The translations under genes were made by a program, and so were the position numbers. A stretch of 53,537 nt of DNA, from the IMG/VR virus record IMGVR_UViG_3300009467_000020, positions 1-53,537 of that record. One strand, given 5' to 3'. This DNA comes from a virus. The number at the start of each line of letters is the position of its first letter. Within the stretch, counting starts at the first letter, position 1. A model generated the notes under the pieces. That model had not been told where the DNA came from. It was given only the letters and a program-made list of their open reading frames with translations, and made no database searches. This document shows positions 2,273 through 51,732 of this stretch, in pieces.

Positions 2273-2575
2273 ATGTCAAACACAAGTAAAGGAATAGGTC
2301 AAGATAGATTAGCAGGAACATTTGGTAGTAAGTACTTAGCTGCAACTACTGTCCACACTAATCTTAATGCATATGCATTTATAGTACAAGAAGATGCTGT
2401 AATGGCTTTAATAGCTGGAGGCGATGGTTCTACGGCAGCAACGGGAATAGATTATCTTACTACTCAAGCACTAGGGTCTGTTACTCTAAAGCAAGGTACT
2501 TTAATAACCGCACCTCAAGGTGAGTTGTTTCAAAATATAACAATTACTTCTGGTTCTGTAATAGCTTATTCGTAA
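2273..2575 (+). CDS. Small putative virion protein (100 aa)
   Basis: Hydrophilic Gly/Thr/Ala-rich protein, starting MSNTSKGIGQDRLAG and ending in a beta-like stretch (ITITSGSVIAYS). No known motif. It sits between the fibre-like protein and a LamG-type protein and overlaps the latter's ATG by one base (TAATG), suggesting translational coupling. A small structural or fibre-associated role is likely from position only. Confidence 0.6.
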   Translation: MSNTSKGIGQDRLAGTFGSKYLAATTVHTNLNAYAFIVQEDAVMALIAGGDGSTAATGIDYLTTQALGSVTLKQGTLITAPQGELFQNITITSGSVIAYS

Positions 2576-3954
2576 TGCCGTTCTTGTCTGCATCGGGAGT
2601 GAGCCCGTATAATAAGATTAGAGTTGGGAGTGGGGGTGGGGTTGAATTACCTTTCGCTTTTGATAATGCCTTAGAGTTTGACGGGGTTAATGATTATGTT
2701 GATTTAGGGTCAGGGGCCGCTGTACTTTCTACTGCTTTTGAATGGACTATATCGTTATGGATAAAACCGAGCAAAACAGGTGTAAGTTTAGGTGGTGATA
2801 ACTCTTCAGCAAACGATTTATTATACCTTATAAATTCTACATTATTTAGAGTTCAATTTGCTGGTGGAAGTGCTGCATTATCGAGGCTTAATTTTACAAT
2901 ACCTACCGTAACATTAAATCAATGGCATCATGTATGTATTACAAAAGATAGTAGTAACGATGTCAGGGTGTATTGGAATGGCGTAGAAAGCGTAACGGGA
3001 GCCCTCCCAACAAATGACACTATACGAATTTATCAACTAGGCTCTTATAGGAGAGTGGGGTTATGGTTTGAAGGAGTTATGGATGAGTTTGGTTTAGACA
3101 TAACTACCGCAGCATCTTCATCGCAGGTTAGCGATTTATATAATGGCGGTAATGGTGCTTCGTTTTTAAAAGTAATGCCTTCCGCTAGAATTAACTATCA
3201 TTTCAACGAAGTTAGCGGCTCTAGTGTAGCAGTTGACGCAACTACTAACGGTAATGACGGAACACTAAACAATTTCAATACATCTACTTGTTGGGTAGCA
3301 CACGGTTTCGGTTTTGGGAATGCTTTAGATTTTGATGGGGTTAATGATTATGTTTCATTACCTACTTGGGGAACAACGACATCTAACCTAACTATATCGG
3401 TATGGCTAAATCTTACTAGTGCTAGTGGGTTACAAGCTGTAATCAGCAGTACGGCTTCGGATTTTTGCCACTTTCAGTTAAATTCAGGTGCAGTAGGAGG
3501 TTATATATACGGGCCTAATGTTCTTTTTAGCAGTACCACAAATTTTGGAGGTTCTAATTTAGGTACTTGGTTTCATGTTGTACTAACTTACGAATTAGGC
3601 ATAACTAAATTATATGTTAATGGTGTTTTAGAAACAACGTCATTTTCAAGCGCAACACCTATAACCGCACCAACGACTTTTAATATGGGTGTTGGTATTG
3701 GAGGAGGAAGGTTTTTACATGGGGTACTTGATGAAGTTGGTGTTGATAGGACAAAAACAGCTACGCAAGTGCAAGTAACAGCCCTTTATAATAGCGGAAA
3801 TGGTGATGATTTCACAACCGTAATGGGATCAAGTAACAATTATTACAAACTCAACGAAAGCGGCACAGACACCATAGCAGTTGATTCAAGTGGAAATGGA
3901 AACGATGGAACATTAACAAATTTTCCTGCATCTGGAATGTGGGTAGCACACTAA
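2575..3954 (+). CDS. Tandem LamG / concanavalin A-like lectin-fold protein (459 aa)
   Basis: Two repeats fill the protein: residues about 27-243 and 245-459. Each opens with FxNAL(E/D)FDGVNDYV, the signature of laminin-G-like/ConA-like (LamGL, Pfam Laminin_G_3) domains, has a W-H-V strand (QWHHVCIT / TWFHVVLT) and ends with NGNDGTL.NF......WVAH. The two units have diverged clearly, so the duplication is not recent. Such domains bind glycans or mediate adhesion. Within this tail-type cluster the likely role is binding host surface polysaccharide. It is coupled to the previous gene through TAATG. Confidence 0.75.
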   Translation: MPFLSASGVSPYNKIRVGSGGGVELPFAFDNALEFDGVNDYVDLGSGAAVLSTAFEWTISLWIKPSKTGVSLGGDNSSANDLLYLINSTLFRVQFAGGSAALSRLNFTIPTVTLNQWHHVCITKDSSNDVRVYWNGVESVTGALPTNDTIRIYQLGSYRRVGLWFEGVMDEFGLDITTAASSSQVSDLYNGGNGASFLKVMPSARINYHFNEVSGSSVAVDATTNGNDGTLNNFNTSTCWVAHGFGFGNALDFDGVNDYVSLPTWGTTTSNLTISVWLNLTSASGLQAVISSTASDFCHFQLNSGAVGGYIYGPNVLFSSTTNFGGSNLGTWFHVVLTYELGITKLYVNGVLETTSFSSATPITAPTTFNMGVGIGGGRFLHGVLDEVGVDRTKTATQVQVTALYNSGNGDDFTTVMGSSNNYYKLNESGTDTIAVDSSGNGNDGTLTNFPASGMWVAH

Positions 3955-4938: not shown

Positions 4939-6477
4939 ATGTCTGACGGAATCGTTAAGAATTTAAACTTCGGAGACGAAGGTAAAAATAAAGTGTTTGA
5001 AGGTGTATCAAAATTAACACGTGCCGTTAGCTCTACATTAGGGGCTAGTGGTAAATGTGTTATGCTTGAGGATGCATCTGGCAAACCATTAATAACAAAG
5101 GATGGTGTAACTGTAGCAGATTTAATTACGCTACTAGATCCTGTAGAAAACATGGGTGCAACGCTTCTAAAGGAAGCTGCTAGGCAAACCGTAAAAGAAG
5201 CTGGCGATGGAACAACAACGGCTACGGTACTAGCACACTCTATACTAAAGATCGCTTTCAATACAAAGGATTATAATTCTAGAGAAATAAGAGATGGTAT
5301 AAGCTCTGCTGTTGATAAGGTAGTTGGCTACCTAGAAAAGAAAGCAAAACCAGTCGAAGGATCAATGCTTAATCATGTAGCTACAATATCATCTAACAAT
5401 GATAAATACCTAGGCGATATTATAGCTAGTACGTTTGAAAAGGTTGGTGATAACGGAGTAGTTAGCATGGAACTATCAAACGATGAAAAAACAACTGCAG
5501 ATATAGTTGATGGCGCAACCTTAAACAAGGGTCTTAAAAGCATGCACTTTGTGAATAACAAAGAAAAGGGTACTTGCGAATTAAACAATCCACTAGTACT
5601 TATAGTAGAGGACAAGATACCTAACGTAAGAAAGATACAAAGCATACTTGAGCATATTATCAAGGAAAAGAAAGAATTACTTATAATCGGTGATGCAGAT
5701 GAGCAGGTAATCACTGCATTGGCAATGAACGCTATGAAAGGTAATATCAAGGCCAATATAGTTGACGCACCAGATTACGGCATAAACAGGAAGCAGATAC
5801 TAGAAGACTTTGCTGCGTTAACTGGAGCTAAGGTTATAAATGAGGAATTAGGGGACGATATGGATCTGATTGAGTCAGATTATTTAGGAACATGCTTAAA
5901 GGTAACCACAGACAATGAAGAAACTATCTTACAAACTGAAGGCATTAATAATGACGTTGATGATCTTATTAAAAAGATTAATTCACAGCTTAAAGAAACT
6001 AGTGCTCCCTTTAAAAAGATTCAACTTGAAAAAAGGCTTTCAAGGCTTGCGGGCAAAGTTGGTGTTATTAAAGTTGGTGCTAACTCGGAAGTTGAATTAA
6101 AAGAAAAGAGTGATAGAGTAGAGGATGCAATATGTGCAACTAAAGCTGCTATCAAAGAAGGTATACTTCCAGGCGGTGGAATAGCACTATTAAATGCTAG
6201 TGATAAGATTAAAGCTAAGGGCGTAGGTGAAGAGATATTGCTAAGAGCTCTTAGAGCACCATTTGATATTATAATGGAAAACGCAGGGATGCAGGACTTT
6301 GAAGCACCTAAGGTTGAAGGCAAGGGATATAATGTGGTTACAGGAAAAATGGTAAATATGATTAACGCAGGAATAGTTGATCCTTTATTGGTAACTAAAA
6401 GTGCTTTGAAGAATGCTGCCTCTGTAGCGAATACGATACTAGCTACTGATTGTGTAATTAATAACTTAAGAGCATGA
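4939..6477 (+). CDS. groEL: Phage-encoded GroEL-type (group I) chaperonin, 512 aa
   Basis: Full-length Hsp60. The equatorial ATP-site residues are present: TKDG with D55, AGDGTTTATVLA with D90 and RVEDA with D396, matching E. coli GroEL D52, D87 and D398. PGGGIAL (411-417) and DPLLVTKSALKNAASVA (481-497) are also present. Residues about 190-375 align with the apical domain, including the substrate/GroES-binding helices and LLIIGD. The protein is shorter than the 548-aa E. coli one, mainly because it ends at NNLRA without the GGM-rich C-terminal tail that lies inside the ring. It overlaps groES by 4 nt. Expected role: folding capsid or other virion proteins in the host cytoplasm; whether it forms single or double rings cannot be read here. 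Confidence 0.96.
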   Translation: MSDGIVKNLNFGDEGKNKVFEGVSKLTRAVSSTLGASGKCVMLEDASGKPLITKDGVTVADLITLLDPVENMGATLLKEAARQTVKEAGDGTTTATVLAHSILKIAFNTKDYNSREIRDGISSAVDKVVGYLEKKAKPVEGSMLNHVATISSNNDKYLGDIIASTFEKVGDNGVVSMELSNDEKTTADIVDGATLNKGLKSMHFVNNKEKGTCELNNPLVLIVEDKIPNVRKIQSILEHIIKEKKELLIIGDADEQVITALAMNAMKGNIKANIVDAPDYGINRKQILEDFAALTGAKVINEELGDDMDLIESDYLGTCLKVTTDNEETILQTEGINNDVDDLIKKINSQLKETSAPFKKIQLEKRLSRLAGKVGVIKVGANSEVELKEKSDRVEDAICATKAAIKEGILPGGGIALLNASDKIKAKGVGEEILLRALRAPFDIIMENAGMQDFEAPKVEGKGYNVVTGKMVNMINAGIVDPLLVTKSALKNAASVANTILATDCVINNLRA

Positions 6478-6734
6478 AAGCAGTAGGAAAATATATACTA
6501 ATAGAGCCAGTTAAAGAAGGCGAAGTATCTACTAAGGGAGGTTTACTGTTAGCTGAAAATCACAGAGATAATATAAGATATAGAGAAGCTAAGGTTAAAA
6601 CCATAGGCACTTTAGTCGAAGGTGTTAAAGACGGAGACACTATCTATTATGATAGACATGCTGGATTTGATATGGAAATAGACAAGACTATTTATAAGGT
6701 CATAAAAGAGTTTGATGTTGTTGTAGTTTTATGA
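6474..6734 (+). CDS. groES: GroES-type co-chaperonin, 86 aa
   Basis: Begins MKAVGKYILIEPVKEGEV and has a mobile-loop-like STKGGLLLAE (residues 19-28, compare GGIVL in E. coli GroES), then GTLVEGVKDGDTIYYDRHAG and a final strand EFDVVVVL. The roof loop appears shortened, giving 86 rather than about 97 residues. ATGA overlap with groEL makes co-translation and 1:1 operon control likely. It should cap the phage GroEL and possibly the host one. Confidence 0.88.
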   Translation: MKAVGKYILIEPVKEGEVSTKGGLLLAENHRDNIRYREAKVKTIGTLVEGVKDGDTIYYDRHAGFDMEIDKTIYKVIKEFDVVVVL

Positions 6735-12028: not shown

Positions 12029-12255
12029 TGGAAAGTGTTATAAGGAAAATTAGCATTGGCGCTGATTACAAAAATGAAGCTATGCATTACGCTGTATCAC
12101 AGCAAGTGTACGGTGGTCATGAAATATCTGATATTCTCCTAGATGAGAAAGATAACTCTTATAACATTTACATAAAGAAGAACGATGAAGTATTGCCTTG
12201 GAAGAAGTTCAATTCTAACATGGCTATCTCTGTGGAGTACGATTTACAGTATTAA
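12028..12255 (+). CDS. Small conserved phage protein (75 aa)
   Basis: Pattern MESVIRKISIGADYKNEAMHY followed by VYGGHEISDILLDEKDNSYNIYIKK and EVLPWKKF. It recurs in marine phages next to the coiled-coil protein upstream; function unknown. TAATG overlaps on both sides place it in a tightly coupled run leading to the terminase. Confidence 0.6.
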   Translation: MESVIRKISIGADYKNEAMHYAVSQQVYGGHEISDILLDEKDNSYNIYIKKNDEVLPWKKFNSNMAISVEYDLQY

Positions 12256-12851
12256 TGAAAAGCGTACATGATTTTATTGTAAAGCCTATAAACGGTAGAT
12301 ACAATAATACAGTAAAAGTCGGAGATGTAGATCTTGTAGTAAACACGAAAATAGAGGAGTTTAAAAACATAAGCAAGATTGCTGAGGTAGTAGCTTTGCC
12401 ATTATCAATAAAAACAAATGTAAAGATAGGTGACAAAGTTGTTGTTCACCACAACGTCTTTAGAAGGTTTTATGATATAAGAGGCAATGAAAAAAACAGT
12501 AGAAGTTTTATAAAAGAAGATATGTACGCTTGCTCACCAGAGCAGATATATATGTACGGAGCCAATACAGCTCATTTAGACTACTGTTTTGTAAAACCTA
12601 TAGTGAACAGCGATATTTTTATTACAAGTAAAGAGAGGCCTCTTATGGGCTTATTGAAGTATGGTAATGAAGAACTAGAAAGCCTTGGCGTTTACGAGGG
12701 TGATTTAGTTTCTTTTAGACCAACGTCTGAATTTGAGTTTGTAGTAGATGGAGAATTATTATATTGTATGAAATTAATTAACGTTGTATCGAAGCATGAA
12801 CGTAAAGGAAACGAAGAAGAGTATAATCCAAGCTGGGCAAAAAGCAGTTGA
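12255..12851 (+). CDS. Double GroES-like (gp31-type) protein, 198 aa
   Basis: The N-terminal half starts MKSVHDFIVKPINGRYNN, then AEVVALP...VKIGDKVVVHHNVF, the order and spacing of a GroES barrel (compare V.P.HD, GEV.A.G, VK.GD.V.F). The C-terminal half repeats the scheme more weakly: DYCFVKPIVN (about 109-118), GVYEGDLVSFRPTSEFEFVVDGELLYCM (about 144-171). Phages such as T4 encode a GroES substitute (gp31) for capsid folding, so a specialised co-chaperonin is the best guess. It is unusual because a normal groES is also present at 6474. It overlaps the following gene by 56 nt. Confidence 0.55.
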   Translation: MKSVHDFIVKPINGRYNNTVKVGDVDLVVNTKIEEFKNISKIAEVVALPLSIKTNVKIGDKVVVHHNVFRRFYDIRGNEKNSRSFIKEDMYACSPEQIYMYGANTAHLDYCFVKPIVNSDIFITSKERPLMGLLKYGNEELESLGVYEGDLVSFRPTSEFEFVVDGELLYCMKLINVVSKHERKGNEEEYNPSWAKSS

Positions 12852-13080
12852 GGAATTGATTAAGGTAGCCAAAGAGGCTATTGTAGATTCTGATGATGAT
12901 CTGACAGCTGATAAACTAAAGAATGCGGCGGCAACTAAAAAGCTAGCTATATTCGATGCTTTCGAAATTCTTAAAAGAATACAAGAGGAAGAAGACATGC
13001 TAGATGATAAACCTAAAGACGACACAAAAAAGAAAAGCGAGTTTAAGGGTTTTGCAGAAGGTAGAGCAAAGTTCGAGTAA
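12796..13080 (+). CDS. Candidate small terminase subunit (94 aa)
   Basis: ATG at 12796 (MNVKETKKSII), inside the end of the previous gene; an upstream TTG at 12784 is less likely. Almost entirely helical and charged (AVEELIKVAKEAIV, AATKKLAIFDAFEILKRIQEEEDML), ending in a Lys-rich tail. It stands immediately before the large terminase, where TerS is expected, and is of suitable size; no HTH is obvious. TerS is inferred from position. Confidence 0.5.
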   Translation: MNVKETKKSIIQAGQKAVEELIKVAKEAIVDSDDDLTADKLKNAAATKKLAIFDAFEILKRIQEEEDMLDDKPKDDTKKKSEFKGFAEGRAKFE

Positions 13081-13081
13081 T

Positions 13082-15298
13082 ATGTACGAGCAAACATTAT
13101 ATAAAGTACTGGATAACTATATAAAACCCAGTACTTTAAAAAAGAAAAATAGAGTCAAGTCCTGGAAGTATGGATATGACGAAGACCATGATATGGTCGT
13201 TATAAGTAAAACTGGTAAAATAGGTGAGATATACGAAATACAAAATCTTAAAATAGCATTACCAGCTGAGTTTAAAACTCACAACTTTAAAGAAAATAAA
13301 TGGGGTAAGTTAGATTACCCTAAAGAGTTAAGCAGAATTAAAACAATATTTGACTGGAAGGAGTACCCAGAAGAATTTAAAGAAGACTGGTACGATTATA
13401 TCGAAACAGAATTTGAAAGAAGAGATGCTGGATTTTTCTTTTCTAATAAAGGCAAGTCTACTTATATCACGGGGTCACATTATATGTATTTACAATGGTC
13501 AAAGATTGATGTTGGAAATGCAGACTTCAGAGAATCAAACAGATTGTTTTATATCTTTTGGGAAGCATGCAAAGCCGATACGAGGTGTTTCGGAATGTGT
13601 TACTTAAAGAACAGGCGTAGTGGATTTTCATTCATGTCGTCAGGAGAAACAGTTAACCTCGCTACAATGTCTACAGACTCTAGATATGGTGTGTTATCAA
13701 AGTCAGGGCCTGATGCAAAGAAAATGTTTACTGATAAGATAGTACCTATATCTATTAACTATCCTTTTTTCTTTAAACCCATACAGGATGGTATGGATAG
13801 ACCGAAGACAGAGCTAGCATATAGGGTTCCTGCTTCAAAGCTTACTAGAAGAAAGCTTGATGTTAACGAAACTGTTGAAGATATAAAGGGGTTGGACTCT
13901 ACAATTGATTGGAAGAATACAGGAGACAACTCTTATGATGGAGAAAAGCTAAAGCTTTTAGTTCATGATGAATCTGGTAAATGGGAAAGACCTAATAACA
14001 TATTAAACAATTGGAGAGTAACAAAGACTTGTCTGAGACTTGGTAGTAGGATTATTGGCAAGTGTATGATGGGATCAACAAGCAATGCCTTAGATAAAGG
14101 CGGTAGCAATTTTAAAAAATTATATTATGCCTCAGACGTTGAAAAAAGAAACAGTAACGGACAAACTGCTTCTGGATTATATTCTTTGTTCATACCTATG
14201 GAATGGAATTACGAAGGATACATTGATTCTTACGGAATGCCTGTCTTCGATACACCAGAGAAACCAGTTAGCGACCCGTATGGAATACCTATTAAACAAG
14301 GGGTAATAAGTTATTGGGAAAATGAAGTTAACGGCTTAAAGCAAGACCAAGACGGTCTAAACGAATTTTACAGACAGTTTCCTAGAACAGAACAACATGC
14401 ATTCAGAGATGAGGCAAAAGAATCATTATTTAACCTAACAAAGATTTACCAACAAATAGACCATAACGAGTCTATGGCTTCTAGTACGTTAGTTACAAAA
14501 GGTAACTTTCAATGGGAAGGTGGAATTAAAGATACCAGGGTAGTATTTATGCCTAATAAAAACGGTAGATTTTATATAAGTTGGATACCACCAGTTAGTC
14601 TACAAAATAGAGTTGTACAAAAACACGGTGTTAATTATCCTGGTAATGAGCACATGGGTGCTTTTGGATGTGATAGTTATGATATATCTGGAACAGTAGA
14701 TAATAGAGGTTCTAATGGTGCACTACATGGATTAACTAAGTTTAGTATGGAGGATGCTCCTTCAAATCATTTCTTTTTAGAATATATAGCTAGACCACAA
14801 ACTGCTGAGATATTCTTTGAAGATGTGCTTATGGCATGCGTGTTTTATGGTATGCCAATACTAGCGGAAAATAACAAACCTAGATTGTTATATCACTTTA
14901 AGAGAAGGGGTTACAGAGGGTATTCTATGAACAGACCAGATAAGTTATTAAATAAGTTATCTACAACAGAAAGAGAGATTGGAGGAATACCTAACTCTAG
15001 TGAAGATATAAAACAAGCGCATGCCGCTGCTATTGAAACATATATAGAGGAATTAGTAGGAATACTAGGTGACGATGAGATGGGAGATGTTTACTTTCAG
15101 AGAACGCTAGAAGATTGGGCTAGATTTAATATTAACAATAGAACTAGTCATGATGCTTCTATAAGCTCAGGTTTAGCTATAATGGCCTGTAACAAAAACA
15201 GATATGCACCAATAAATAAAGTGGTACGAAAAAATATAAATCTAGGACTTAAGAGATACGATAATACTGGAGAATTTTCAAAAATAATAAATAAATGA
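13082..15298 (+). CDS. terL: Terminase large subunit (738 aa)
   Basis: DNA packaging motor. The start is the ATG at 13082, one base after the previous stop; an upstream alternative frame start is not needed. The ATPase half has an arginine-rich Walker-A-like KNRRSGFSF (a deviant P-loop as in many TerL) and a clear Walker B, LLVHDES (D296, E297). The nuclease half has GAFGCDSYDISG with D531 as a likely catalytic acid of the RNase H-like domain. 738 aa is longer than most TerL (450-600) and similar to Bacteroidetes/crAss-type enzymes. ATGA overlap with the portal gene. Confidence 0.88.
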   Translation: MYEQTLYKVLDNYIKPSTLKKKNRVKSWKYGYDEDHDMVVISKTGKIGEIYEIQNLKIALPAEFKTHNFKENKWGKLDYPKELSRIKTIFDWKEYPEEFKEDWYDYIETEFERRDAGFFFSNKGKSTYITGSHYMYLQWSKIDVGNADFRESNRLFYIFWEACKADTRCFGMCYLKNRRSGFSFMSSGETVNLATMSTDSRYGVLSKSGPDAKKMFTDKIVPISINYPFFFKPIQDGMDRPKTELAYRVPASKLTRRKLDVNETVEDIKGLDSTIDWKNTGDNSYDGEKLKLLVHDESGKWERPNNILNNWRVTKTCLRLGSRIIGKCMMGSTSNALDKGGSNFKKLYYASDVEKRNSNGQTASGLYSLFIPMEWNYEGYIDSYGMPVFDTPEKPVSDPYGIPIKQGVISYWENEVNGLKQDQDGLNEFYRQFPRTEQHAFRDEAKESLFNLTKIYQQIDHNESMASSTLVTKGNFQWEGGIKDTRVVFMPNKNGRFYISWIPPVSLQNRVVQKHGVNYPGNEHMGAFGCDSYDISGTVDNRGSNGALHGLTKFSMEDAPSNHFFLEYIARPQTAEIFFEDVLMACVFYGMPILAENNKPRLLYHFKRRGYRGYSMNRPDKLLNKLSTTEREIGGIPNSSEDIKQAHAAAIETYIEELVGILGDDEMGDVYFQRTLEDWARFNINNRTSHDASISSGLAIMACNKNRYAPINKVVRKNINLGLKRYDNTGEFSKIINK

Positions 15299-17703
15299 AT
15301 ATAGGCGCAAACCCAAATAGTATATTTCCTAGCCAAGTAGTTAGTGATGCTGAAAAATCAAGCTTTGAGTATGGCGTGCAAGTTGGTAGGGCTATAGAAT
15401 CAGAATGGTTCAGGCAAGGTGGTATGGGAAATAGGTTTTCACAGAATTATAATCATTTTCACACATTAAGACTTTACGCAAGAGGAGAGCAACCAGTACA
15501 AAAATACAAAGATGAGTTAGCAATTAATGGTGACTTATCTTATTTAAACTTAGACTGGGGGATAGTTCCAGTTATATCTAAATTTGTAGATATAGTTGTT
15601 AATGGTATTACTGAGAAAGAATTTCAAATAAAAGCATATGCACAAGATCCAGAGTCTGTAAAGAAAAGGACAGATTACGCCGAAGCTATAATGCAAGACA
15701 TGGTAGCAAAGCAAGAGATTATGGCAATCGATGCTGCAATTGGTATTAACAGTTTCAATACTGATAGTCCAGAAAATCTTCCTCAAACTAAAGAGGAGCT
15801 TTCTCTACACATGCAATTAGATTACAAGCAGTCTATTGAGGTTGCTGAAGAAGAGGTTATAAATCAAGTATTAGCAAAGAATAAGTTTGATCAAATACAA
15901 AAACGATTTAACCATGATTTAGTTGTATTAGGTATAGGTGCAACTAAAACCACTTGGAATAAAGCAGAGGGTGTTGTTCTTGAGTATTGTGATCCAGCTA
16001 GAATGGTTTACTCTTATACTGATGACCCAAACTTTGAAGATATATATTATGTTGGCGAGGTTAGGGCACTTACGATACCAGAATTAAAAAAGCAGTTTCC
16101 TAATATACCAAACGAAGAGCTAGAAAGAATTGAAAAGATGCCAGGTAACAGGGAGTATGTTACTGGTTGGAATGCTTATGATCAAAATACTGTTCAGGTT
16201 TTGTTTTTTGAATACAAAACTTATAATAACCAAGTATTTAAAATTAAGCAAGGTGCTAATGGATTAGAAAAAGCAATACAAAAGACAGACGAATTTAATC
16301 CTCCTGAGAACGATACATTTAAAAAAGTATCAAGAAGCATTGAGGTGTTATACAGTGGAGCAAAAGTTTTAGGTACTAATACAATGCTAAAGTGGGAGTT
16401 AGCTGAAAATATGACTAGACCGTTCGCTGATACTACTAAAGTAGAAATGAACTATGTCATATGTGCACCTAGAATGTACCAAGGCAGAATAGAGTCTATT
16501 GTAAGCAAGACAACTAGCTTTGCAGATATGATTCAACTTACACATTTGAAGTTGCAACAGGTATTATCTAGAATGGTTCCTGACGGAGTATTCTTAGATG
16601 TTGATGGATTGGCAGAGGTTGATTTAGGTAATGGAACAAGCTACAACCCAGCCGAAGCACTTAACATGTATTTCCAAACTGGTAGTGTTCTAGGTAGGTC
16701 ACTTACGCAAGACGGTGATATGAATAGAGCAAAGGTTCCTATTCAAGAATTACAAACATCAAGCGGAAGCGCTAAGATACAGTCACTAACTCAGACTTAT
16801 CAGTATTACTTGCAAATGATAAGAGATGTTACTGGGCTTAATGAAGCAAGAGATGGTTCTGCTCCAGCTAAAGATGCTTTAGTCGGGTTGCAGAAGATGG
16901 CCGCTAATCAGTCGAATGTAGCAACTAGACACATATTACAGGCTAGTTGTTATTTGTCTCTTAGAATATGCGAGAACATATCTAGAAGAGTTGCCGATTC
17001 ACTAGAGTTTGCACTAACGGCTAATTCTCTACAAAACAGTATAACTAATTTCAATGCTGCAACTTTATCTGAGATTTCTCAATTAAACCTACATGACTTT
17101 GGTATATTCTTAGAGTTAGAACCGGACGATGAAATAAAAGCTCAATTAGAGCAAAACATACAGGTAGCATTAAAGTCTGGTGGAATAGACTTAGAGGACG
17201 CTATAGATATAAGACAAGTAAAAAATCTTCAGTTGGCAAATGAAATGCTAAAGGATAGAAGAAAGAAAAAGCAGGCAGCGGCACAACAAGCGCAGCAAGC
17301 TAACATACAGGCACAAGCACAGGCTAACTCAGAATCAGCTGAAAAAGCTGCAATGTATGAAGTACAGAAACAGCAAGCGTTAACCGCTGAGAAAGTGAGT
17401 ATAGAGCAAGCTAAGTCTCAATTTGAAATAGAAAGACTTCAAGCAGAGGCTCAGATAAAAAGAGAGTTAATGGCTACTGAGTTTGAGTATAACATGCAAT
17501 TGGCTCAACTTAGAGTAGAAGCAGAAACTTCTAAAGGAACTCAAATGGAGGATAGGAAAGATAAAAGAACTAAAATACAAGCTACTCAGCAGTCAGAGTT
17601 AATATCTCAAAGGCAAAATGATTCTTTACCTAAAAACTTTGAATCTACAGGTAATGATATCTTAAGCGGAGGGTTTGGTTTAGAGCAGTTTGACCCAAGT
17701 TAA
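15295..17703 (+). CDS. Portal protein (802 aa)
   Basis: Large portal of the podovirus/crAss-like type: FHTLRLYARGEQPVQKYKDEL (about 55-75), LSYLNLDWGIVPVISKFVDIVVNGI (81-105), a long beta/alpha body, and a Gln/Ala-rich coiled coil at about residues 652-749, probably the crown or barrel. It forms the dodecameric ring through which DNA enters and leaves. Position between terminase and scaffold/capsid is decisive. Overlaps terL by 4 nt. Confidence 0.85.
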   Translation: MNIGANPNSIFPSQVVSDAEKSSFEYGVQVGRAIESEWFRQGGMGNRFSQNYNHFHTLRLYARGEQPVQKYKDELAINGDLSYLNLDWGIVPVISKFVDIVVNGITEKEFQIKAYAQDPESVKKRTDYAEAIMQDMVAKQEIMAIDAAIGINSFNTDSPENLPQTKEELSLHMQLDYKQSIEVAEEEVINQVLAKNKFDQIQKRFNHDLVVLGIGATKTTWNKAEGVVLEYCDPARMVYSYTDDPNFEDIYYVGEVRALTIPELKKQFPNIPNEELERIEKMPGNREYVTGWNAYDQNTVQVLFFEYKTYNNQVFKIKQGANGLEKAIQKTDEFNPPENDTFKKVSRSIEVLYSGAKVLGTNTMLKWELAENMTRPFADTTKVEMNYVICAPRMYQGRIESIVSKTTSFADMIQLTHLKLQQVLSRMVPDGVFLDVDGLAEVDLGNGTSYNPAEALNMYFQTGSVLGRSLTQDGDMNRAKVPIQELQTSSGSAKIQSLTQTYQYYLQMIRDVTGLNEARDGSAPAKDALVGLQKMAANQSNVATRHILQASCYLSLRICENISRRVADSLEFALTANSLQNSITNFNAATLSEISQLNLHDFGIFLELEPDDEIKAQLEQNIQVALKSGGIDLEDAIDIRQVKNLQLANEMLKDRRKKKQAAAQQAQQANIQAQAQANSESAEKAAMYEVQKQQALTAEKVSIEQAKSQFEIERLQAEAQIKRELMATEFEYNMQLAQLRVEAETSKGTQMEDRKDKRTKIQATQQSELISQRQNDSLPKNFESTGNDILSGGFGLEQFDPS

Positions 17704-18932: not shown

Positions 18933-20393
18933 ATGGGACAATTTGGAGCGGGTGATCCGCTAGGCGCATTTAGCATCACGCCAATGCCATCAAAAATGGC
19001 ACTTGAGAGTAATTACTTAAGTTTTACAGATGCAGGAGGAAACTCAAATAACTTTGCACAGCAGTACTTACCAGAGCTTTATGAAGCTGAGGTAGAGCGT
19101 TATGGAAACAGAACTTTGTCTGGATTCTTACGTATGGTTGGAGCTGAAATGCCAATGACTTCTGATCAAGTTATTTGGTCTGAACAAGAAAGATTGCACA
19201 TCGGTTATGAAAGTGTAGCTGGTGGAACAGTAACTGTTTCTGCATCTACAAGTGCTGAATCAACTATTACTTTTACAGGAACTGCATTGGATGCCAATGG
19301 AAAGCATGCGATACGCCTTGGAAACACTCTTGTAGTAACAAATCCTGCAACAAACGTTACACTTAAGTGTTATGTAACAGCTGTTACTGATGCTACAGTT
19401 AATGTTAAATCATATACTACGGCTAATTTAGCAACTATTGGAGAGTCTACTGTGAACCTATTTGTTTATGGTTCTGAATTTGCTAAAGGAACACTAGGAA
19501 TGTCTGGTTCTCTTGACGCACAATTCAAACAGTTCAATAACAAACCTATTATCATTAAGGACAACTATGAGATCAACGGATCTGATACTGCTCAAATTGG
19601 TTGGGTTGAAGTTGCTACTGAAGATGGAGCATCAGGATACCTATGGTATTTGAAGTCTGAAGGAGAAACAAGATTGCGTTTCCAAGATTACTTAGAAATG
19701 GCAGTTATTGAAGGAGAATTAAAATCTGCTACATCTACTGCTCCAGTAGGAGGTACTCAGGGTTTATTCTCTGCTATCGAAGAAAGAGGTAACGTGTATC
19801 AAAACTATGCAAGTGGAACTGTAGCTCCAAGTACTGGAAACAGAACAGCTTTGCAGGATTTTGATTTTATTCTACAGAATCTTGACAAGCAAGGTGCTAT
19901 TGAAGAAAACATGTTATTCTTAGATAGAGCTACTTCTTTGAATTTTGATGATATGTTAGCTGCTCAGAACTCTTATGGAGCTGGTGGTACTTCTTACGGG
20001 GTGTTTGAAAACTCTGAAGAAATGGCACTGAACTTAGGATTTGATGGTTTCAGACGTGGTTCTTATGATTTCTATAAGACTGATTGGAAATATCTAAATG
20101 ATGCTACAACTAGAGGCATGGTAAACAATGTCTCAGGTGTATTAGTTCCTGCTGGAACAAGTACAGTGTATGATCAAATGTTAGGTACTAACATCAGACG
20201 ACCATTTCTACACGTACGATACAGAGCTTCTGAAGCTGATGATCGTAGAATGAAGTCTTGGATCACGGGATCTGTTGGTGGAGCTGCAACTTCTAGTTTA
20301 GATGCAATGACAGTTAACTTCCTATCTGAGAGATGTTTGGTTACTCAAGCAGCTAATAATTTCGTATTATTTACTGCTACTAACCCAGCTTAG
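18933..20393 (+). CDS. Major capsid protein (486 aa)
   Basis: Position after scaffold, size, codon use richer in TCT/GGA and GAA than neighbours, an A-rich leader (AAAAACAAAAAAA) and a strong terminator behind all fit the major capsid protein. The segment from about residue 30 (SFTDAGGNSNNFAQQYLPELYEAEVERYGNRTL) resembles the N-terminal/E-loop start of HK97-fold capsids, and an insertion of Thr/Val-rich beta sequence at about 90-165 (GGTVTVSASTSAEST) may be a surface domain. No maturation cleavage site is evident. Confidence 0.85.
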   Translation: MGQFGAGDPLGAFSITPMPSKMALESNYLSFTDAGGNSNNFAQQYLPELYEAEVERYGNRTLSGFLRMVGAEMPMTSDQVIWSEQERLHIGYESVAGGTVTVSASTSAESTITFTGTALDANGKHAIRLGNTLVVTNPATNVTLKCYVTAVTDATVNVKSYTTANLATIGESTVNLFVYGSEFAKGTLGMSGSLDAQFKQFNNKPIIIKDNYEINGSDTAQIGWVEVATEDGASGYLWYLKSEGETRLRFQDYLEMAVIEGELKSATSTAPVGGTQGLFSAIEERGNVYQNYASGTVAPSTGNRTALQDFDFILQNLDKQGAIEENMLFLDRATSLNFDDMLAAQNSYGAGGTSYGVFENSEEMALNLGFDGFRRGSYDFYKTDWKYLNDATTRGMVNNVSGVLVPAGTSTVYDQMLGTNIRRPFLHVRYRASEADDRRMKSWITGSVGGAATSSLDAMTVNFLSERCLVTQAANNFVLFTATNPA

Positions 20394-27491: not shown

Positions 27492-29510
27492 ATGGCCACA
27501 GTAAGAGAAATATCATACTTCAATTCATTTGTAGTTAAGAAATTAGTTAGAGCTCAAAATGGAGCTGGAGGAGGCTCGGCTACTTGGCCAGGATTACCTT
27601 GGAATCCAACTGGATATCCTAACTTCCCATTATTAGCAACACAAGATCCAGCGGAGCAAATATATACTTGGTATGTTGAAGAATCTAGAATACGAGGCGG
27701 TTATAATAATGACCAAGTTGATTTAGGGGTTAGAGCATACATAAGAGAAACTAATGATTCTGAGCTAATATTAGCTAATGGAATAATCTATTCTGGATTA
27801 TATAACTCTACAACAGGATTTAACGATACAAATGTATTTTCTGTTGCTGAAAAAATAGAGAAACAGGTTGATCCAAGATATGGCCCTATACAAAAACTAC
27901 ATACAACTGACACTAATTTAATCATTTTTCAAAATGATAAAGTAAGTAATACCACAGTAGATAAGGATACCATATATACAGGTGATGGTAACGCAGTACA
28001 GACTGCATCTAATTTAGTATTAGGTACTGTAAACCAATATGCTGGAGAATATGGTATAAGTACAAATCCAGAGTCATTTTCGTTTAAAGGTAACAGGTTG
28101 TATTTTTCAGATAAAAATAGAGGTGCAATAATGAGATTATCGTTAGATGGTCTTACTGAAATAAGTGCATATGGTATGCGTGATTATTTTAGAGATAAGT
28201 TAGCTGATATATCTGAAACAACAGGATTTAGTCCTTTTGTTACCGTAAATGTATATGCAGGCCAAACTACAGGTGGGGCTCCATTTCCTACAAATTCTTT
28301 AGTGGTAAGTGATTCTGCTTCTGGGCTAGTGGGTAACCTAGAACTTGGCATGCAGTGCTCTACGTCCATGTTTGGCAATAGTAGCGTTTACGTTAATGCG
28401 AAACAATCTGTTGGTACATTAACAGGGGATTTGAATATACCTTCTGGCACGTCTTCACTAACTCCTGGAACTTATACAGTAATAACTGTTACAACATCTA
28501 GATACGTAGCAACACAGGTTGCCGCAACTGTCAACGTAATTGTTTCATCTGCAGGCGCAGTAGATAGAATTATTGTTCAGTCAGGCGGTACGTTTTATTC
28601 TGCTGGTGATGTACTTACAATACCTGGAAATTTAATAGGTGGAGCAACTCCCGCTAACGATCTTAAAGTTACGATAGTCGAAGCTAATTTAACTGCAATA
28701 TCTACTACGCACAAACGCGTAACATTTGATAGGGTATTAAATTATTTAGATCCATTTGGCGTACTTGATTATCTTGATTATAGCTTTTACAGTTTAGTTA
28801 GCGATAAAATCGTAGGTGGTTATGATAACTATTACGACAACTATGTTGTCTCAATGCAAAAATCATCTGGTACTTACGATACAATATCATTTGCTGATTC
28901 AGTAAACGGATGGACTAGCTTCTGGGATTACAAACCTTCTTTCATAGATACTATTAACAATGTATACTATTCAGTAGAAGGCGCTAATATATGGAAACAT
29001 TACGATCAATCGGTGATTAATAATAGAGGATACTTTTACGGAACTTATTATCCGTCTTCAGTAGAATTAACTTTTAATACTAATCCTTCTATTTCTAAGA
29101 ATTTTAATACAATTGGATACGAAGGAACTAATGGATGGCAAGTTGATTATTTCTTGTCTGATCCAACAGGTGCTACGATGTTATCGGCTGAAACTAATAA
29201 CTACAAAGATGAAACATCTTTTGTATACAGTTATGATGAAGGCGTATATACTGAAGATGGCGTAACATACAGAGTTGGATTCAATAGAAAAGAAAATAAA
29301 TACGTAGCTAACTTAATAAATAAAGGCGTGTTGATTAGCGGTAGTAATGAAAGCGTTGAGTTTGGTCAGCCTGGACAAGTAGTACCTGGTATTAGTATGA
29401 GCGGTATAAAAGGGTTTTTTGCAACTGTTAAATTAAGTACTGATGATACTACCGATTTAGGTGGTAGCAAGAACTTATTTTGTGTATCTTCAAACTTTGT
29501 TAAATCTTAA
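27492..29510 (+). CDS. Second beta-propeller tail protein (672 aa)
   Basis: Contains a run of blades: VAEKIEKQVDPRYGPIQKLHTTDTNLIIFQNDKVS (about 116-150) and QYAGEYGISTNPESFSFKGNRLYFSDKNRGAIMRLSLDG (178-216), typical of nozzle/stabilisation proteins, where the same motifs occur in one longer chain. Residues about 305-400 carry another copy of the Gly/Thr-rich GTYTV...GGTFYSAGDVLTIPG domain seen twice in the upstream gene. The C-terminal VTYRVGFNRKENKYVANLIN repeats a late fibre/propeller motif. Probably assembles with the 1411-aa protein at the tail tip. Confidence 0.7.
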   Translation: MATVREISYFNSFVVKKLVRAQNGAGGGSATWPGLPWNPTGYPNFPLLATQDPAEQIYTWYVEESRIRGGYNNDQVDLGVRAYIRETNDSELILANGIIYSGLYNSTTGFNDTNVFSVAEKIEKQVDPRYGPIQKLHTTDTNLIIFQNDKVSNTTVDKDTIYTGDGNAVQTASNLVLGTVNQYAGEYGISTNPESFSFKGNRLYFSDKNRGAIMRLSLDGLTEISAYGMRDYFRDKLADISETTGFSPFVTVNVYAGQTTGGAPFPTNSLVVSDSASGLVGNLELGMQCSTSMFGNSSVYVNAKQSVGTLTGDLNIPSGTSSLTPGTYTVITVTTSRYVATQVAATVNVIVSSAGAVDRIIVQSGGTFYSAGDVLTIPGNLIGGATPANDLKVTIVEANLTAISTTHKRVTFDRVLNYLDPFGVLDYLDYSFYSLVSDKIVGGYDNYYDNYVVSMQKSSGTYDTISFADSVNGWTSFWDYKPSFIDTINNVYYSVEGANIWKHYDQSVINNRGYFYGTYYPSSVELTFNTNPSISKNFNTIGYEGTNGWQVDYFLSDPTGATMLSAETNNYKDETSFVYSYDEGVYTEDGVTYRVGFNRKENKYVANLINKGVLISGSNESVEFGQPGQVVPGISMSGIKGFFATVKLSTDDTTDLGGSKNLFCVSSNFVKS

Positions 29511-40900: not shown

Positions 40901-42622
40901 TTAGCCGTCACAGCTCAAGCAATCAGGGTCCATTGCATTAGCAGCAATATCACCTCTAAGCACAGACTCTGTGCGAACATAATACAATGTCTTGATACCT
41001 TTCTTCCAAGCTTCATAATGAACAGTGTTAATCCACTTAGGTGTTGCCTCTGAGGGAAACGCTAAGTTTAAACTAACAGACTGGTCAATGTACTGCTGGC
41101 GTATGCCTGCCTGATTAACTAACTCTAATTGATTAATCTCTTTAAAGGTTTTATAAACCTCCTTGATAGGCATATCCCAATCCCCTATTAGTATATCATT
41201 TAATTCATCTACACCTTGAATTGAACCGCCATCTCTAAGTATCTTGTCCCAAATAGAATCATTGTTTAGTCCTATGTCTTCTAAGGCCTGTTCTAAGCTC
41301 TTATTACGGCGTATAAACGTTCCTTTAGCAGATTGATCAGTAAATACATTTGCAGCCCAAGGTTCGATCCCTGGTGATATATCCCCAGACAATTTAGAGT
41401 TTGATACTGTTGGAGCAATTGCCCTTAGGTGCGTGTTGCGCATTCCTGTACCGACACACCATAATGGCTCACCATATATTTCTGCTAATGCCATTGAAGC
41501 TCTCTCACTTTCAATCTTAATCTGAGAGAATATCTTACGAGTCTCGAACTGTGCAAGTAAACCCTCGAACGGAATACCTTTCTCTTGCAAGTAAGTATGC
41601 CACCCTAAAACGCCTAAGCCAATAGCTCTACCTTTCTGAGCTGAACGTACTGCGTTCTCAAATCCCCTAAGACCTTTAGCCTTCTGAATAAACTCCTCCA
41701 TGACGCCATCTAAAAAGAAAGTAGCGTCATAAATTAAGTTTGTATCCTTCCACTCTTCGTATTTCGCTAGATTTAAAGAAGATAAACAACAAACAAAACT
41801 ATGATTTTCATCAGTATGTAAGGTTATCTCAGAACATATATTAGTCATATGAACCTTTAGCCCGTTATCTTTATATGCCGGTGGATTTGCTTTATTAATA
41901 TTTCCCTTGAACATAACATAAGGTTCTCCAGTAGCCTTACGCTTTCTAAGAAGGTTAGACCATTTTCTTCTAGCCTCTGGATCACCTTGCTCTAGCTTAC
42001 GCATAAACTTATCTCCAACTATAGCACATTGGTGAAGGTTAAGTGACTGTCTATTAACGTCTCCCTTTGGTTCTCTTATTTCAAGCCAGTCCTCAAAATC
42101 ACCATGCTCAATATTGATATTGACTGAAGCTGCGCCTCGTCTTACTGAGCCTTGATTCGTAGCAAGAATAGTTGAGTCATATATCTTACAGAATGGTACG
42201 ACACCATCAGACGTTCCGTTACCAGTAATCTTAGTTCCAGCAGGTCTTATCTGATTGATACCAATACCTACTCCACCTCCATGCTTTGCAAGCAGCATCA
42301 TCTCAAGATTCTTCTGACCTATGTCTTGAATTGAATCAGCAACATCAATACCAAAGCAACTAATAGGAAGACCCCTGTCAGTACCGACATTTGAAAGAAC
42401 AGGACTGGCAAGACATAACCAGCCTTTCCAAATATATTCGAAAAAAGTGTCAGCCATCTCTGGCTTGTATAATCTTCTTGCAATTGTCTTAGCCACTCTA
42501 TGGTATGCCTCCTTTGGCGTTTCCCCATCAAATAAATAACCACCTGATATGGTCTTCTTATAAACATCTGTATCTCCCCACTCAGGAAAATCCTCTCCTT
42601 TAATCCAATTTTCATTCCACAT
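40901..42622 (-). CDS. nrdA: Ribonucleotide reductase class I, large (alpha) subunit, 573 aa
   Basis: Reduces ribonucleoside diphosphates with NrdB. Seen: first redox Cys in GLPISCFGID (C89), active-site NICSEI (N261, C263, E265), second redox Cys in SFVCCLSSLNL (C278/C279), paired Tyr near KTLYYVRTES (about 544-545), and a C-terminal CLSC relay (C568, C571). It starts directly at the catalytic ten-stranded barrel, so the N-terminal ATP-cone that carries allosteric activity control in E. coli NrdA is missing, as in many phage enzymes; dATP feedback shut-off is thus unlikely. Last gene of the leftward arm; its ATG overlaps the previous stop by one base. Confidence 0.95.
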   Translation of the reverse strand: MWNENWIKGEDFPEWGDTDVYKKTISGGYLFDGETPKEAYHRVAKTIARRLYKPEMADTFFEYIWKGWLCLASPVLSNVGTDRGLPISCFGIDVADSIQDIGQKNLEMMLLAKHGGGVGIGINQIRPAGTKITGNGTSDGVVPFCKIYDSTILATNQGSVRRGAASVNINIEHGDFEDWLEIREPKGDVNRQSLNLHQCAIVGDKFMRKLEQGDPEARRKWSNLLRKRKATGEPYVMFKGNINKANPPAYKDNGLKVHMTNICSEITLHTDENHSFVCCLSSLNLAKYEEWKDTNLIYDATFFLDGVMEEFIQKAKGLRGFENAVRSAQKGRAIGLGVLGWHTYLQEKGIPFEGLLAQFETRKIFSQIKIESERASMALAEIYGEPLWCVGTGMRNTHLRAIAPTVSNSKLSGDISPGIEPWAANVFTDQSAKGTFIRRNKSLEQALEDIGLNNDSIWDKILRDGGSIQGVDELNDILIGDWDMPIKEVYKTFKEINQLELVNQAGIRQQYIDQSVSLNLAFPSEATPKWINTVHYEAWKKGIKTLYYVRTESVLRGDIAANAMDPDCLSCDG

Positions 42623-42798
42623 TATGATAAATATAATATTGCGTAGGCTATTGCTACGTTTAAGTTAATTAATACTAAGTTCCATTGTTTTGCTACAAAT
42701 ACTTGAGGTATACATATAACCCCAGCTATAACATAGGTAATCATCCCTATTTTATCTGGAAGTAGATGGGGACTCACCATTGCGAATGCTGTCCCCAT
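42622..42798 (-). CDS. Small membrane protein (58 aa) in the nrd cluster
   Basis: Hydrophobic segments MGTAFAMVSPHLLP and IGMITYVIAGVICIPQVFVA, then QWNLVLINLNVAIAYAILYL, giving two or three membrane helices. I choose the ATG at 42798, 10 nt after the preceding stop; the frame also runs up to an ATG at 42900, which would overlap the upstream gene by 92 nt and add a basic extension. Small proteins with the IPQV.AKQWNLV pattern occur in other marine phages; function unknown. Confidence 0.6.
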   Translation of the reverse strand: MGTAFAMVSPHLLPDKIGMITYVIAGVICIPQVFVAKQWNLVLINLNVAIAYAILYLS

Positions 42799-42808
42799 AT
42801 ATCCCAAC

Positions 42809-43039
42809 CTACTCGAAAGTCTTTCTACTGGAGTCAACCTCTTCGGCTTCACCAGACTCTTTAATAATCTTTTGCTTAAGCTTCTCAATTGCTTCATCAT
42901 AATCAGGCATTAGTTTCATTGTCTCTATAGTTCCTATAGAAAAATCTTTTATACTATTAATTTCATTTATTAGACCTTGAACTACTCTAGTTAAGGAATC
43001 GATCTTCTTCTGCATTTCAATTAATGTACTCTCTTTCAT
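42809..43039 (-). CDS. Small coiled-coil protein (76 aa)
   Basis: Starts MKESTLIEMQKKIDSLTRVVQGLINEINSIKDF, a heptad-like helix, followed by an acidic and basic charged end. No family. It overlaps the SET gene by 4 nt (ATGA) and so should be co-translated with it. Confidence 0.55.
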   Translation of the reverse strand: MKESTLIEMQKKIDSLTRVVQGLINEINSIKDFSIGTIETMKLMPDYDEAIEKLKQKIIKESGEAEEVDSSRKTFE

Positions 43040-43416
43040 ATTACTTTATTAACGTTTCTATAATTTACTTTTAATTCTGTATTTTTTTTTATATTTCTTT
43101 TTGCAATGCAAATTTTACTAATCATAGAATATTCTTTATTATTATAAGGCACAAATTCTACATTACCATTTCTACTGTGGTTTACCCATCTAGCTAATGT
43201 TGTTCTTTTATCATCCATTATAACTGCTCCTATAATATCAAATTTATTAAAATTTTTATTTGCAAAAATTCCTAAGCCATTAATTTTAGATTTTTTCTTA
43301 TAGTAAAAAGAACTTTCTATTTCTATTAAGTTATCAATATCTTGGTATTTCATCCAAGCCATCATTTCTTTTTCTGTAATTTTAAGTTCTTTTAAAAATA
43401 ATTTAAAGTCTTTCAT
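43036..43416 (-). CDS. SET-domain protein, putative lysine methyltransferase (126 aa)
   Basis: After a 40-residue helical start comes a minimal SET domain: NGLGIFANKNFNKFDIIG (46-63; compare G.G.FA...I..G..I), RWVNHSRNGN (76-85; the NHS..PN S-adenosylmethionine/knot motif) and IAKRNIKKNTELKVNYR (104-120; the EL..NY/DY motif that completes the active site with a Tyr). No post-SET zinc cysteines. Such proteins transfer methyl groups from S-adenosylmethionine to lysines; the target here is unknown. It lies between nrdB and nrdA, behind a 41-bp direct repeat. AT-rich codon use is stronger than in the neighbouring nrd genes, suggesting separate acquisition. Confidence 0.75.
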   Translation of the reverse strand: MKDFKLFLKELKITEKEMMAWMKYQDIDNLIEIESSFYYKKKSKINGLGIFANKNFNKFDIIGAVIMDDKRTTLARWVNHSRNGNVEFVPYNNKEYSMISKICIAKRNIKKNTELKVNYRNVNKVI

Positions 43417-43434
43417 AGTAATTATAATTCGATA

Positions 43435-43498
43435 TAATGAATCATTTATAGTTCATTAACAGCCAAAATGATAGCTAATGAATCATTTATAGTTCATT
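43435..43498. repeat. Two 23-bp direct repeats, 41-bp period
   Basis: TAATGAATCATTTATAGTTCATT occurs identically at 43435-43457 and 43476-43498. Each copy is itself a short inverted repeat (AATGAA / TTCATT). The pair fills the gap between the end of nrdB and the start of the SET gene, so it could be an operator pair, an mRNA-processing site or a transcription pause. Confidence 0.8.
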
Positions 43499-43505
43499 GG
43501 TATTA

Positions 43506-44474
43506 CTACCAAATATCCTCAAAATCTTCTCCTTCACCCGCTTTACTATAGTCTGTCGAACGAATAGCAAAAAAATCAGTATGGGTGTGACCACCAGTAA
43601 GATGGTAAAACCAATCCAATTTCTTAGCACTTTCCTCATCAAAAGAAAAATAACTACCAAGATCTGTATAACCAATTTCATATAGCTTTTCATTTGTTCT
43701 TTTCTTTATAAAGTTTTTTAAATCAGTAGAAGACATTCCTTCAATGTCACCCATCTCGAACATTTTATCAATGTAGTTTAGTTCTAACTCAACCATAATT
43801 TTAGCTGCCTCTATAACGTCATCCTTAACTAAAACTCTTAAGTGTACATCCTCTTCACACATCTGGTTAAATAATTTACAACCCATCTTACTATGCAGTG
43901 ATTCATCGCGCACAGACCATTTCATTTGTTGTCCAATACCTTTAAGCATATTACGTAACTGGAAAGAATACAAAACAGCAAAAGCGCTGTATAAGCTAAC
44001 GCCCTCAGCAAAGGCTGAAAAGATAGCAAGTGATGTAGCAATACCAGTACGGCTATTTCCGTCATAAGCCATAAGATTATTAAACCTATTAGCCGTTGCC
44101 GGCTGATGTAAGAAAGCTTCATAATTTTCTAATTTTAATGTTTCGTTTAAATAGCTATATGCTACAGCGTGTACTGTTTCTTGAGAACCGAACATCATAG
44201 CCATCTGCTGTATCTCATGCTTTGGAAACCAGTGAGTTACCTTGTTAGTCCAGTAGTCTGAAACTGCACATTCAGTCTGAGCAAATCCTAATAGGATATT
44301 TCCTACTAGATTCTTTTCTTTATCCGTGAGGTTCTCATTCCAGTCCTTAACGTCTCCTGACATGCTAATTTCTGTATGTAGCCAGAATGCTTGTGCTTGC
44401 TTCAACCAGCCCTCCGTATAATATTCGGGGTATTCAAATGGTTTGTAAGCTAATCTAGGTGTAAATAATGACAT
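43506..44474 (-). CDS. nrdB: Ribonucleotide reductase class I, small (beta) subunit, 322 aa
   Basis: Ferritin-like R2 protein that makes the radical for NrdA. Dimetal ligands inferred by pattern: E68 (AQTECA), E99 and H102 (SQETVHAVAY), E157 (FAEGVSLYS), E191 and H194 (RDESLH). The radical Tyr is retained at H102+4 (Y106). The first ligand is Glu instead of the usual Asp of class Ia. The C terminus EGEDFEDIW, acidic with a final aromatic, is the docking tail for NrdA. Separated from nrdA by three small genes. Confidence 0.94.
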   Translation of the reverse strand: MSLFTPRLAYKPFEYPEYYTEGWLKQAQAFWLHTEISMSGDVKDWNENLTDKEKNLVGNILLGFAQTECAVSDYWTNKVTHWFPKHEIQQMAMMFGSQETVHAVAYSYLNETLKLENYEAFLHQPATANRFNNLMAYDGNSRTGIATSLAIFSAFAEGVSLYSAFAVLYSFQLRNMLKGIGQQMKWSVRDESLHSKMGCKLFNQMCEEDVHLRVLVKDDVIEAAKIMVELELNYIDKMFEMGDIEGMSSTDLKNFIKKRTNEKLYEIGYTDLGSYFSFDEESAKKLDWFYHLTGGHTHTDFFAIRSTDYSKAGEGEDFEDIW

Positions 44475-50976: not shown

Positions 50977-51732
50977 TTACAAATAATCGATCACTTGCGA
51001 ATGATCTACCTTTTCTATTAAAGATTCAACAGCTTGCTTTTTTAATTCAGAGACTCTTATATGATTACTAGTACCATTTAAGCCTAATATGCTAGCTATT
51101 TCTTTAGCAGAATGCTTTTCACAATCTAAGCCATAAGATAATCTTAATACCTCATACTCATTACCAGATAGATGTTTATTCATTATTCCAGTTAAATAAG
51201 AATTAAGTATTGCAATATTATATGGCTCAGAGTCGTCTATAATATTATGGTATAATGTTTCACCATTACCATCGGTAGTAACACTGTCAATGCTAAGGAA
51301 TATAGAATTAAAGAACATTTCAACCATTTTTTTATCATTAGGATTCTTACGCATTTCATTTCGTTTATGTTCGGGTATTTTTATATCCCCCCTATTGATG
51401 TCTATACGTCGTCTAATGGCCCCTTTTATTCGTTTTGATAAGAAGGACTTTAATGTCTTTTCGATGTCATCTGAATCATTTAAACGCCTATAGTCTATTT
51501 TGTCTACGGCTCTTACTAGAGCTTCTGCTCCTATTTGGATCAAGTCATTAATACTTAATACTCCAATAGATTGCTGTGACGTAGGAAACTTACGTGCTAA
51601 ATTTTCTACTAAAGGTAGAAACTTTACTATTAATTCATCTCTTTCATATTCCATCCATAACTTTGGATCTGGCATAGACTCTACTAAGTCTTTTTTATAC
51701 CGAATGTAATTTTGTACATTATAATTTTTCAT
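50977..51732 (-). CDS. Sigma-70 family sigma factor (251 aa)
   Basis: Region 2 is recognisable from ELIVKFLPLVENLARKF through INDLIQIGAEALVRAVDKID and FLSKRIKGAIRRRID (about 32-110). Region 4 is LSGNEYEVLRLSYGLDCEKHSAKEIASILGLNGTSNHIRVSELKKQA (about 188-234), with an HTH. Region 1 is absent and region 3 short. It should redirect host RNA polymerase to phage promoters, most likely of the late arm. Immediately downstream of the HTH gene whose leader has the shared 18-mer. Confidence 0.85.
   Translation of the reverse strand: MKNYNVQNYIRYKKDLVESMPDPKLWMEYERDELIVKFLPLVENLARKFPTSQQSIGVLSINDLIQIGAEALVRAVDKIDYRRLNDSDDIEKTLKSFLSKRIKGAIRRRIDINRGDIKIPEHKRNEMRKNPNDKKMVEMFFNSIFLSIDSVTTDGNGETLYHNIIDDSEPYNIAILNSYLTGIMNKHLSGNEYEVLRLSYGLDCEKHSAKEIASILGLNGTSNHIRVSELKKQAVESLIEKVDHSQVIDYL

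Follow-up and report, generated by a model that had tools for sequence, protein, structure and literature searches.

The window analysed here, a single virus record of 53,537 bp from a marine virus of bacteria in a flavobacterial phage lineage, encodes a GroEL, a single-domain GroES and a second co-chaperonin gene, whose product is a tandem Cpn10 with a predicted fold resembling chloroplast Cpn20 (Table 1). These genes probably specify a phage-owned three-protein group I machine that would act as a lidded folding cage for phage proteins, with two kinds of lid subunit, the single-domain GroES and the tandem Cpn10. The GroEL-GroES pair in itself is already known and the barrel is ordinary for this virus family; the GroEL of this flavobacterial phage lineage is already in print, so the gene pair is not new. 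Among the open-licence PMC papers listed in literature searches, none was seen to describe a tandem Cpn10 from a phage, and several of the homologues are named 'co-chaperonin GroES' or 'chaperonin cpn10' in GenBank. An earlier note on this DNA had described the gene pair and missed the second co-chaperonin gene, along with the apical substitutions and the shortened ring-ring segments of the GroEL.

Table 1. Positions of the features discussed in the text.
Feature	Position	Strand	Description
groEL	4939..6477	+	512-aa group I chaperonin without a C-terminal GGM tail
groEL segment 1, E. coli ring-ring contact (K105/A109 region)	5212..5295	+	position by alignment; 2 residues shorter than in cellular GroELs
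groEL segments 2 and 3 (E434 loop; helices P-Q, R452/E461/S463/V464)	6175..6336	+	position by alignment; about 7 and about 5 residues shorter than in E. coli
groES	6474..6734	+	86-aa single-domain co-chaperonin; GGLLL mobile loop at 6537-6551; reduced roof
tandem Cpn10	12255..12851	+	198 aa; predicted second co-chaperonin, just upstream of the terminase gene
terminase large subunit	13004..15298	+	syntenic neighbour of the tandem Cpn10
portal protein	15295..17703	+	part of the synteny
virion structural protein	18933..20393	+	486 aa, phrog_13704; candidate client

The groEL-groES pair

The groEL and groES ORFs lie on the same strand and share 4 nt in an ATGA overlap. The predicted GroEL matched the Pfam family Cpn60_TCP1 (PF00118) over residues 26-508 (1.8e-54, 185.7 bits, cut-off 34.3), which spans the full length as in group I chaperonins, and the predicted GroES matched Pfam Cpn10 above the curated cut-off (5e-11). 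PHROG matches were also obtained for both products (1.3e-140 for groEL and 5.5e-12 for GroES), and the pair is complete, as the earlier note had described it. The three aspartates that the note had called intact, D55, D90 and D396, are all in place and align to D52, D87 and D398 at the ATP site of E. coli GroEL, again as in group I. ATP-site residues are mostly retained in this alignment, with P33 replaced by A. The apical segment spans 184 residues compared with 186 in cellular GroELs, so the protein has no built-in lid insertion; its separate Cpn10 partner is the product of the overlapping groES. Where dS was defined, pairs with the window gave dN/dS values of 0.055-0.133 (groEL) and 0.032-0.057 (groES). 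Ratios this low mark both genes as being under strong purifying selection and not as chance ORFs. Together with the intact catalytic residues, this selection supports the suggestion that the chaperonin should be active.

The window GroES has a roof segment of 9 residues, compared with 18 for E. coli GroES and 13 for the Bacteroidota GroES proteins recovered (49 of the 80 cellular loci listed gave a GroES). The roof is thus shortened as had been claimed, although relative to the likely hosts the loss comes to only about 4 residues. The mobile-loop segment is about 3 residues longer (31 vs 28) and reads GGLLL in place of the E. coli GGIVL. A reduced roof and a mobile loop longer than that of GroES are the features of a gp31-type roofless co-chaperonin, and the window GroES has both. 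Its predicted model (pLDDT 81.3) matched Cpn10 chains with Z 8.5-11.6, among them gp31 chains with Z 8.8 (1g31) and 9.5. In the available text of its description, T4 gp31 has no roof loops, longer mobile loops and a chamber that is 8% larger (PMC6318259). The two proteins share the Cpn10 fold, the reduced roof and the longer mobile loop, the extension being 3 residues in the window GroES and 6 in gp31. They differ in that T4 gp31 uses the host GroEL, whereas the window groES sits beside a phage groEL.

Phage chaperonins had been described as uncommon, which is roughly right. GroEL matches were found in 266 of 50,697 phage records, all at less than 60% identity to the window, and part of these 266 records resemble bacterial contigs filed as phage. 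The chaperonins of the giant phages EL, OBP and AR9 work without a co-chaperonin, according to the accessible portion of one account (PMC9598537). The EL protein resembles that of the window in being a phage-encoded, tail-less GroEL with an altered ring-ring region. The EL and PBS1 GroELs are, however, only about 24% identical to that of the window, and no Cpn10 was found in the EL and PBS1 records, whereas the window groEL is overlapped by a groES.

Relatives of the window terminase include elemo, Callevirus, Baltivirus (phi18:3), Panino, Gundel_1 and the Manatee Spring genome MW202828. Terminase matches were found in 87 of the 50,697 phage records, at 31-65% identity among the matches listed. 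Cultured relatives grow on Flavobacterium sp. BAL314 (elemo) and on Cellulophaga baltica (phi38:1 and phi18:3). By terminase and portal, elemo (Elemovirus), Callevirus (phi38:1, Calle) and Panino belong to the same lineage as the window, and like it they carry a GroEL without a GGM tail, a groES and a tandem Cpn10 beside the terminase. Their GroELs are nevertheless only 35-39% identical to that of the window, and in elemo and Calle the groEL locus lies elsewhere. The nearest GroEL copies were found in 25 IMG/VR contigs, with 62-100% identity in the best segment. A set of 36 group 2 Bacteroidetes phage genomes carries GroEL akin to the Cellulophaga phage copies, in the part of the report available (PMC5332604); these genomes are likened to the window by GroEL, and the terminase and portal comparison covers the other relatives.

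The tandem Cpn10 and its distribution

The tandem Cpn10 was modelled with AlphaFold2 from 55 window and IMG/VR sequences (pLDDT 82.4, pTM 0.73). The closest solved fold to the model was Chlamydomonas Cpn20, which was matched by both halves (7ekq_R, Foldseek E 1.2e-5); with 7ekq_Q, 155 residues were aligned across model residues 1-181 (Z 10.4, rmsd 5.4). At the level of sequence, residues 1-173 matched phrog_13932 'co-chaperonin GroES' (5.6e-22), and the window's own protein gave no Pfam match. The C half exceeded the Pfam Cpn10 cut-off in the homologues of phi18:3, phi38:1, Calle_3 and G020, which represent three lineages, and it matched GroES in a profile search of the PDB (1.2e-4). The N half of the elemo homologue matched the phage GroES profile phrog_3188 (3e-4), and in one hhalign comparison the N half matched GroES at E 1.2e-4 with a probability of only 28%. 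Profile comparison of the two halves with one another gave no match. A head-to-tail pair of Cpn10 domains is thus indicated by predicted structure in both halves, and by sequence strongly in the C half and weakly in the N half. The gene is likewise under strong purifying selection, with dN/dS of 0.032-0.135 for pairs with the window where dS was defined.

The same arrangement is seen in Cpn20/Cpn21, which also have two Cpn10 domains head to tail and single-domain Cpn10/11 alongside. Identity to Chlamydomonas Cpn20 is, however, only 14-16%, and because of this divergence the window protein is classed as one that may work like Cpn20 and not as a member of that group. The C domain differs further in having no mobile loop of normal length, the loop being short in 51 of the 55 tandem sequences, so not all seven sites of a ring could be contacted in the way GroES does. 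At the N-domain mobile-loop position a hydrophobic stretch is kept: L27 is present in 52 of 55 sequences, V/I/L28 in 54, L/V/I29 in 50, and the adjoining N30 in all 55. A C-terminal tail, KGNEEEYNPSWA (12804-12839), is conserved and partly disordered in the window clade and is missing in the elemo, Callevirus and phi18:3 homologues.

For the tandem gene search the best 80 of 581 relatives were kept. The 113 IMG/VR contigs examined were chosen by groEL or tandem-gene searches, with 14 of the 113 retrieved twice and merged, and for these reasons the locus counts are not prevalences. Among these search-selected contigs the tandem gene was present in 111 of 113, with a terminase on the same contig in 109 of the 111; wherever the two genes were seen together they shared a strand (122 of 122 loci). 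A groEL was found in 44 of the 113 contigs, always with a groES (44 of 44). Both genes lay upstream in 26 of the 34 contigs with at least 8.9 kb of sequence upstream of the tandem gene. In six of the remaining eight, groEL was elsewhere in the record, and L147 (72.8 kb) and L148 (17.8 kb) were without groEL. Compared with neighbours such as L105, the related contigs L118 and L122 hold about 0.6 kb extra from the tandem Cpn10 to the terminase, between 9600 and 10430. No repeats or tRNAs of note were found near the locus.

Of the tandem-bearing records tested, 19 of 22 also carry a single-domain Cpn10, two of them without GroEL (the set counts phi38:1 twice, as a GenBank and an IMG/VR copy). The three records with no single Cpn10 are G014 (54.4 kb), G028 (17.8 kb) and G026 (16.3 kb), contigs whose completeness is not established. 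Another, apparently unrelated tandem gene was seen in Flavobacterium phage MaF61: ORF64 (PQ858689, L044 912-1475) contains two Pfam Cpn10 stretches and lies directly upstream of groEL, and a single Cpn10 is encoded separately at another place in that genome. This protein had no tblastn match to any other phage record, and so it is possibly an independent duplication.

Candidate roles of ring and lids

In the favoured reading, a phage-owned cage of three proteins, the ring would bind ATP and take up non-native proteins of the phage, most probably large virion proteins made late. A lid would then close the ring, and more room would be left inside by the loss of the GGM tails and the smaller roof, as with T4 gp31 and gp23. 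The tandem Cpn10 would be a lid for the phage ring, for the host ring, or for a joint mixed lid with the single GroES. Mass spectrometry reportedly recorded GroEL peptides of phi38:1 both from infected cells and from samples of free virions, in the section of the source at hand (PMC13288928). Co-expression with the head genes is not a general rule, since in elemo and Callevirus groEL and groES either lie on the strand opposite to those genes or are separated from them. The lineage also offers small natural test systems for the question of which virion proteins depend on a roomier or private cage for folding.

The residues of the apical domain count against the three-protein cage. Positions of E. 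coli GroEL assigned to ring-ring contacts, salt bridges, apical binding and the cavity wall served as the reference. In E. coli numbering, the window GroEL carries Y199L, Y203H, L234Q, L259I, V263A and V264M and retains S201, F204 and L237, so that 3 of 9 GroES- or client-binding positions are kept. Summed over 27 presumed cavity-wall positions, the net charge is -6 for the window protein, compared with -7 for E. coli GroEL and +4 for that of EL; the window value is close to that of E. coli, and the idea of a special cavity charge was dropped.

The two lids may instead serve different rings, with GroES closing the phage ring and the tandem Cpn10 taking over host GroEL in the style of T4 gp31, an arrangement that is possible rather than probable. 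The conserved hydrophobic stretch of the N domain is in line with this, as are phi18:3 (71 kb) and G020/L147 (72.8 kb), which have a tandem and a single Cpn10 and no Cpn60; if the lids of these phages act on a ring at all, it would have to be host GroEL. A phage GroEL is, however, also present in most tandem-bearing records of sufficient length, and an even number of domains is by itself mismatched to a heptamer.

The model that follows from the earlier note, a single ring with a tail loss adapted to one unusual client, we regard as doubtful as a whole. Its first part draws on the ring-ring contacts. All three segments are shortened in 18 of 18 members of the window clade: their lengths are 28-29, 35 and 19-22 residues, whereas 26 of 26 cellular GroELs have 30, 40-43 and 23-26. 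In the window protein, D, Q and F stand opposite R452, E461 and S463 of E. coli, and V464 has no counterpart in the alignment. With all three contact segments reduced, altered ring coupling or a single ring is plausible in the window clade. In the elemo GroEL only segment 2 is shortened and segments 1 and 3 are of full length. In EL, according to the text available, helix alphaQ is replaced by a loop and double rings nevertheless form, splitting with ATP (PMC7185714), which argues against reading a single ring from such changes. The tail is indeed missing, as the note had stated: the window GroEL ends in ...TDCVINNLRA without GGM repeats, and from E. coli position 519 onwards it has 8 residues, compared with 21-33 in each of the 26 cellular GroELs. 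GGM repeats are also missing, however, from all 33 phage GroELs compared (18 of the window clade and 15 others), including phages with quite different genomes. The loss is therefore not particular to the window phage, and the claim of a special adaptation to a client was rejected. The GroELs of immuto, SJC03, Vib2275 and LR756501 have tails of 21-24 residues of other make-up, without GGM repeats.

Instead of forming a lid, the tandem Cpn10-fold protein might assist packaging or the head, or cap ClpP as in the chloroplast complex 7ekq, which we consider unlikely. The gene is fixed just upstream of the terminase, the top structural match comes from a ClpP complex, and no mobile loop of normal length is present in the C domain, all of which would fit such a role. 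Tenacibaculum phage Gundel_1, by contrast, has terminase and portal, with no Cpn10 or Cpn60 in its record and no tandem gene in the region read, so packaging does not always depend on the tandem gene. In phi18:3, the annotations based on virion MS/MS include the portal but not gp096, and no ClpP was present among the families scanned in the scanned subset of ORFs.

Within the favoured three-protein cage, an elaborate form would be a mixed lid of three tandem subunits and one single GroES over a ring with a reduced ring-ring interface, which we consider quite unlikely and offer by analogy with plastids. Three tandem and one single subunit give seven domains, the same count as in chloroplast lids, which are described as hetero-oligomers of seven GroES-like domains built from tandem and single subunits. 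Plastids have tandem co-chaperonins, and a two-domain subunit on a seven-fold ring is presented as a symmetry dilemma (both points from the available part of PMC5780408). One lid for the phage ring and the other for the host ring would be simpler. Co-occurrence of tandem and single Cpn10 was set aside as proof of a mixed lid, since 6 of 8 sampled GroEL phages with no detected tandem also carry a single Cpn10. A lineage with tandem and single lid genes, with or without its own GroEL, provides small natural test systems for the symmetry question. If the mixed lid were true, a virus lineage would have arrived anew at the answer found in chloroplasts, and asymmetric lids would be a design that recurs.

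Phylogeny bears on the origin of the pair; 26 of the 80 listed cellular loci entered the trees, and the same 26 served for comparing tails and segments. The window clade formed one group with full support outside the cellular rows in both trees. Both were quick trees with long branches, which leave its exact place unsure. For the AU test, 16 of 60 rows were dropped (EL, PBS1, MaF61, crAss cr111, six window-clade near-duplicates, four flavobacterial rows, Vib1244 and Celerinatantimonas). That the operon is a recent host groESL copy merely raising general folding capacity is very improbable: the GroEL is of group I type and related phages infect Flavobacteriia, but cellular GroELs reach only about 42% identity at best among the matches listed, with Flavobacteriia no closer than other phyla, a grouping of the window clade with Flavobacteriia was rejected (AU p = 0.008), and groEL precedes groES, the reverse of the groES-groEL order of E. 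coli.

Other genes in the window

Several further genes were observed. The product of 27492-29510 has a C-terminal crAssvirus muzzle domain (PF25729, above cut-off), a tail link to Crassvirales. On the minus strand, 40901-44474 encodes a ribonucleotide reductase pair with a large subunit of only 573 aa, 45905-46666 a MazG pyrophosphohydrolase with a fused N-terminal T5orf172 domain, and 50977-51732 a sigma factor-like protein (phrog_351, 1.7e-20) in which Pfam region 2 falls just below the cut-off. The product of 2575-3954 contains two LamG/concanavalin A-like stretches and is a possible receptor-binding or structural protein.
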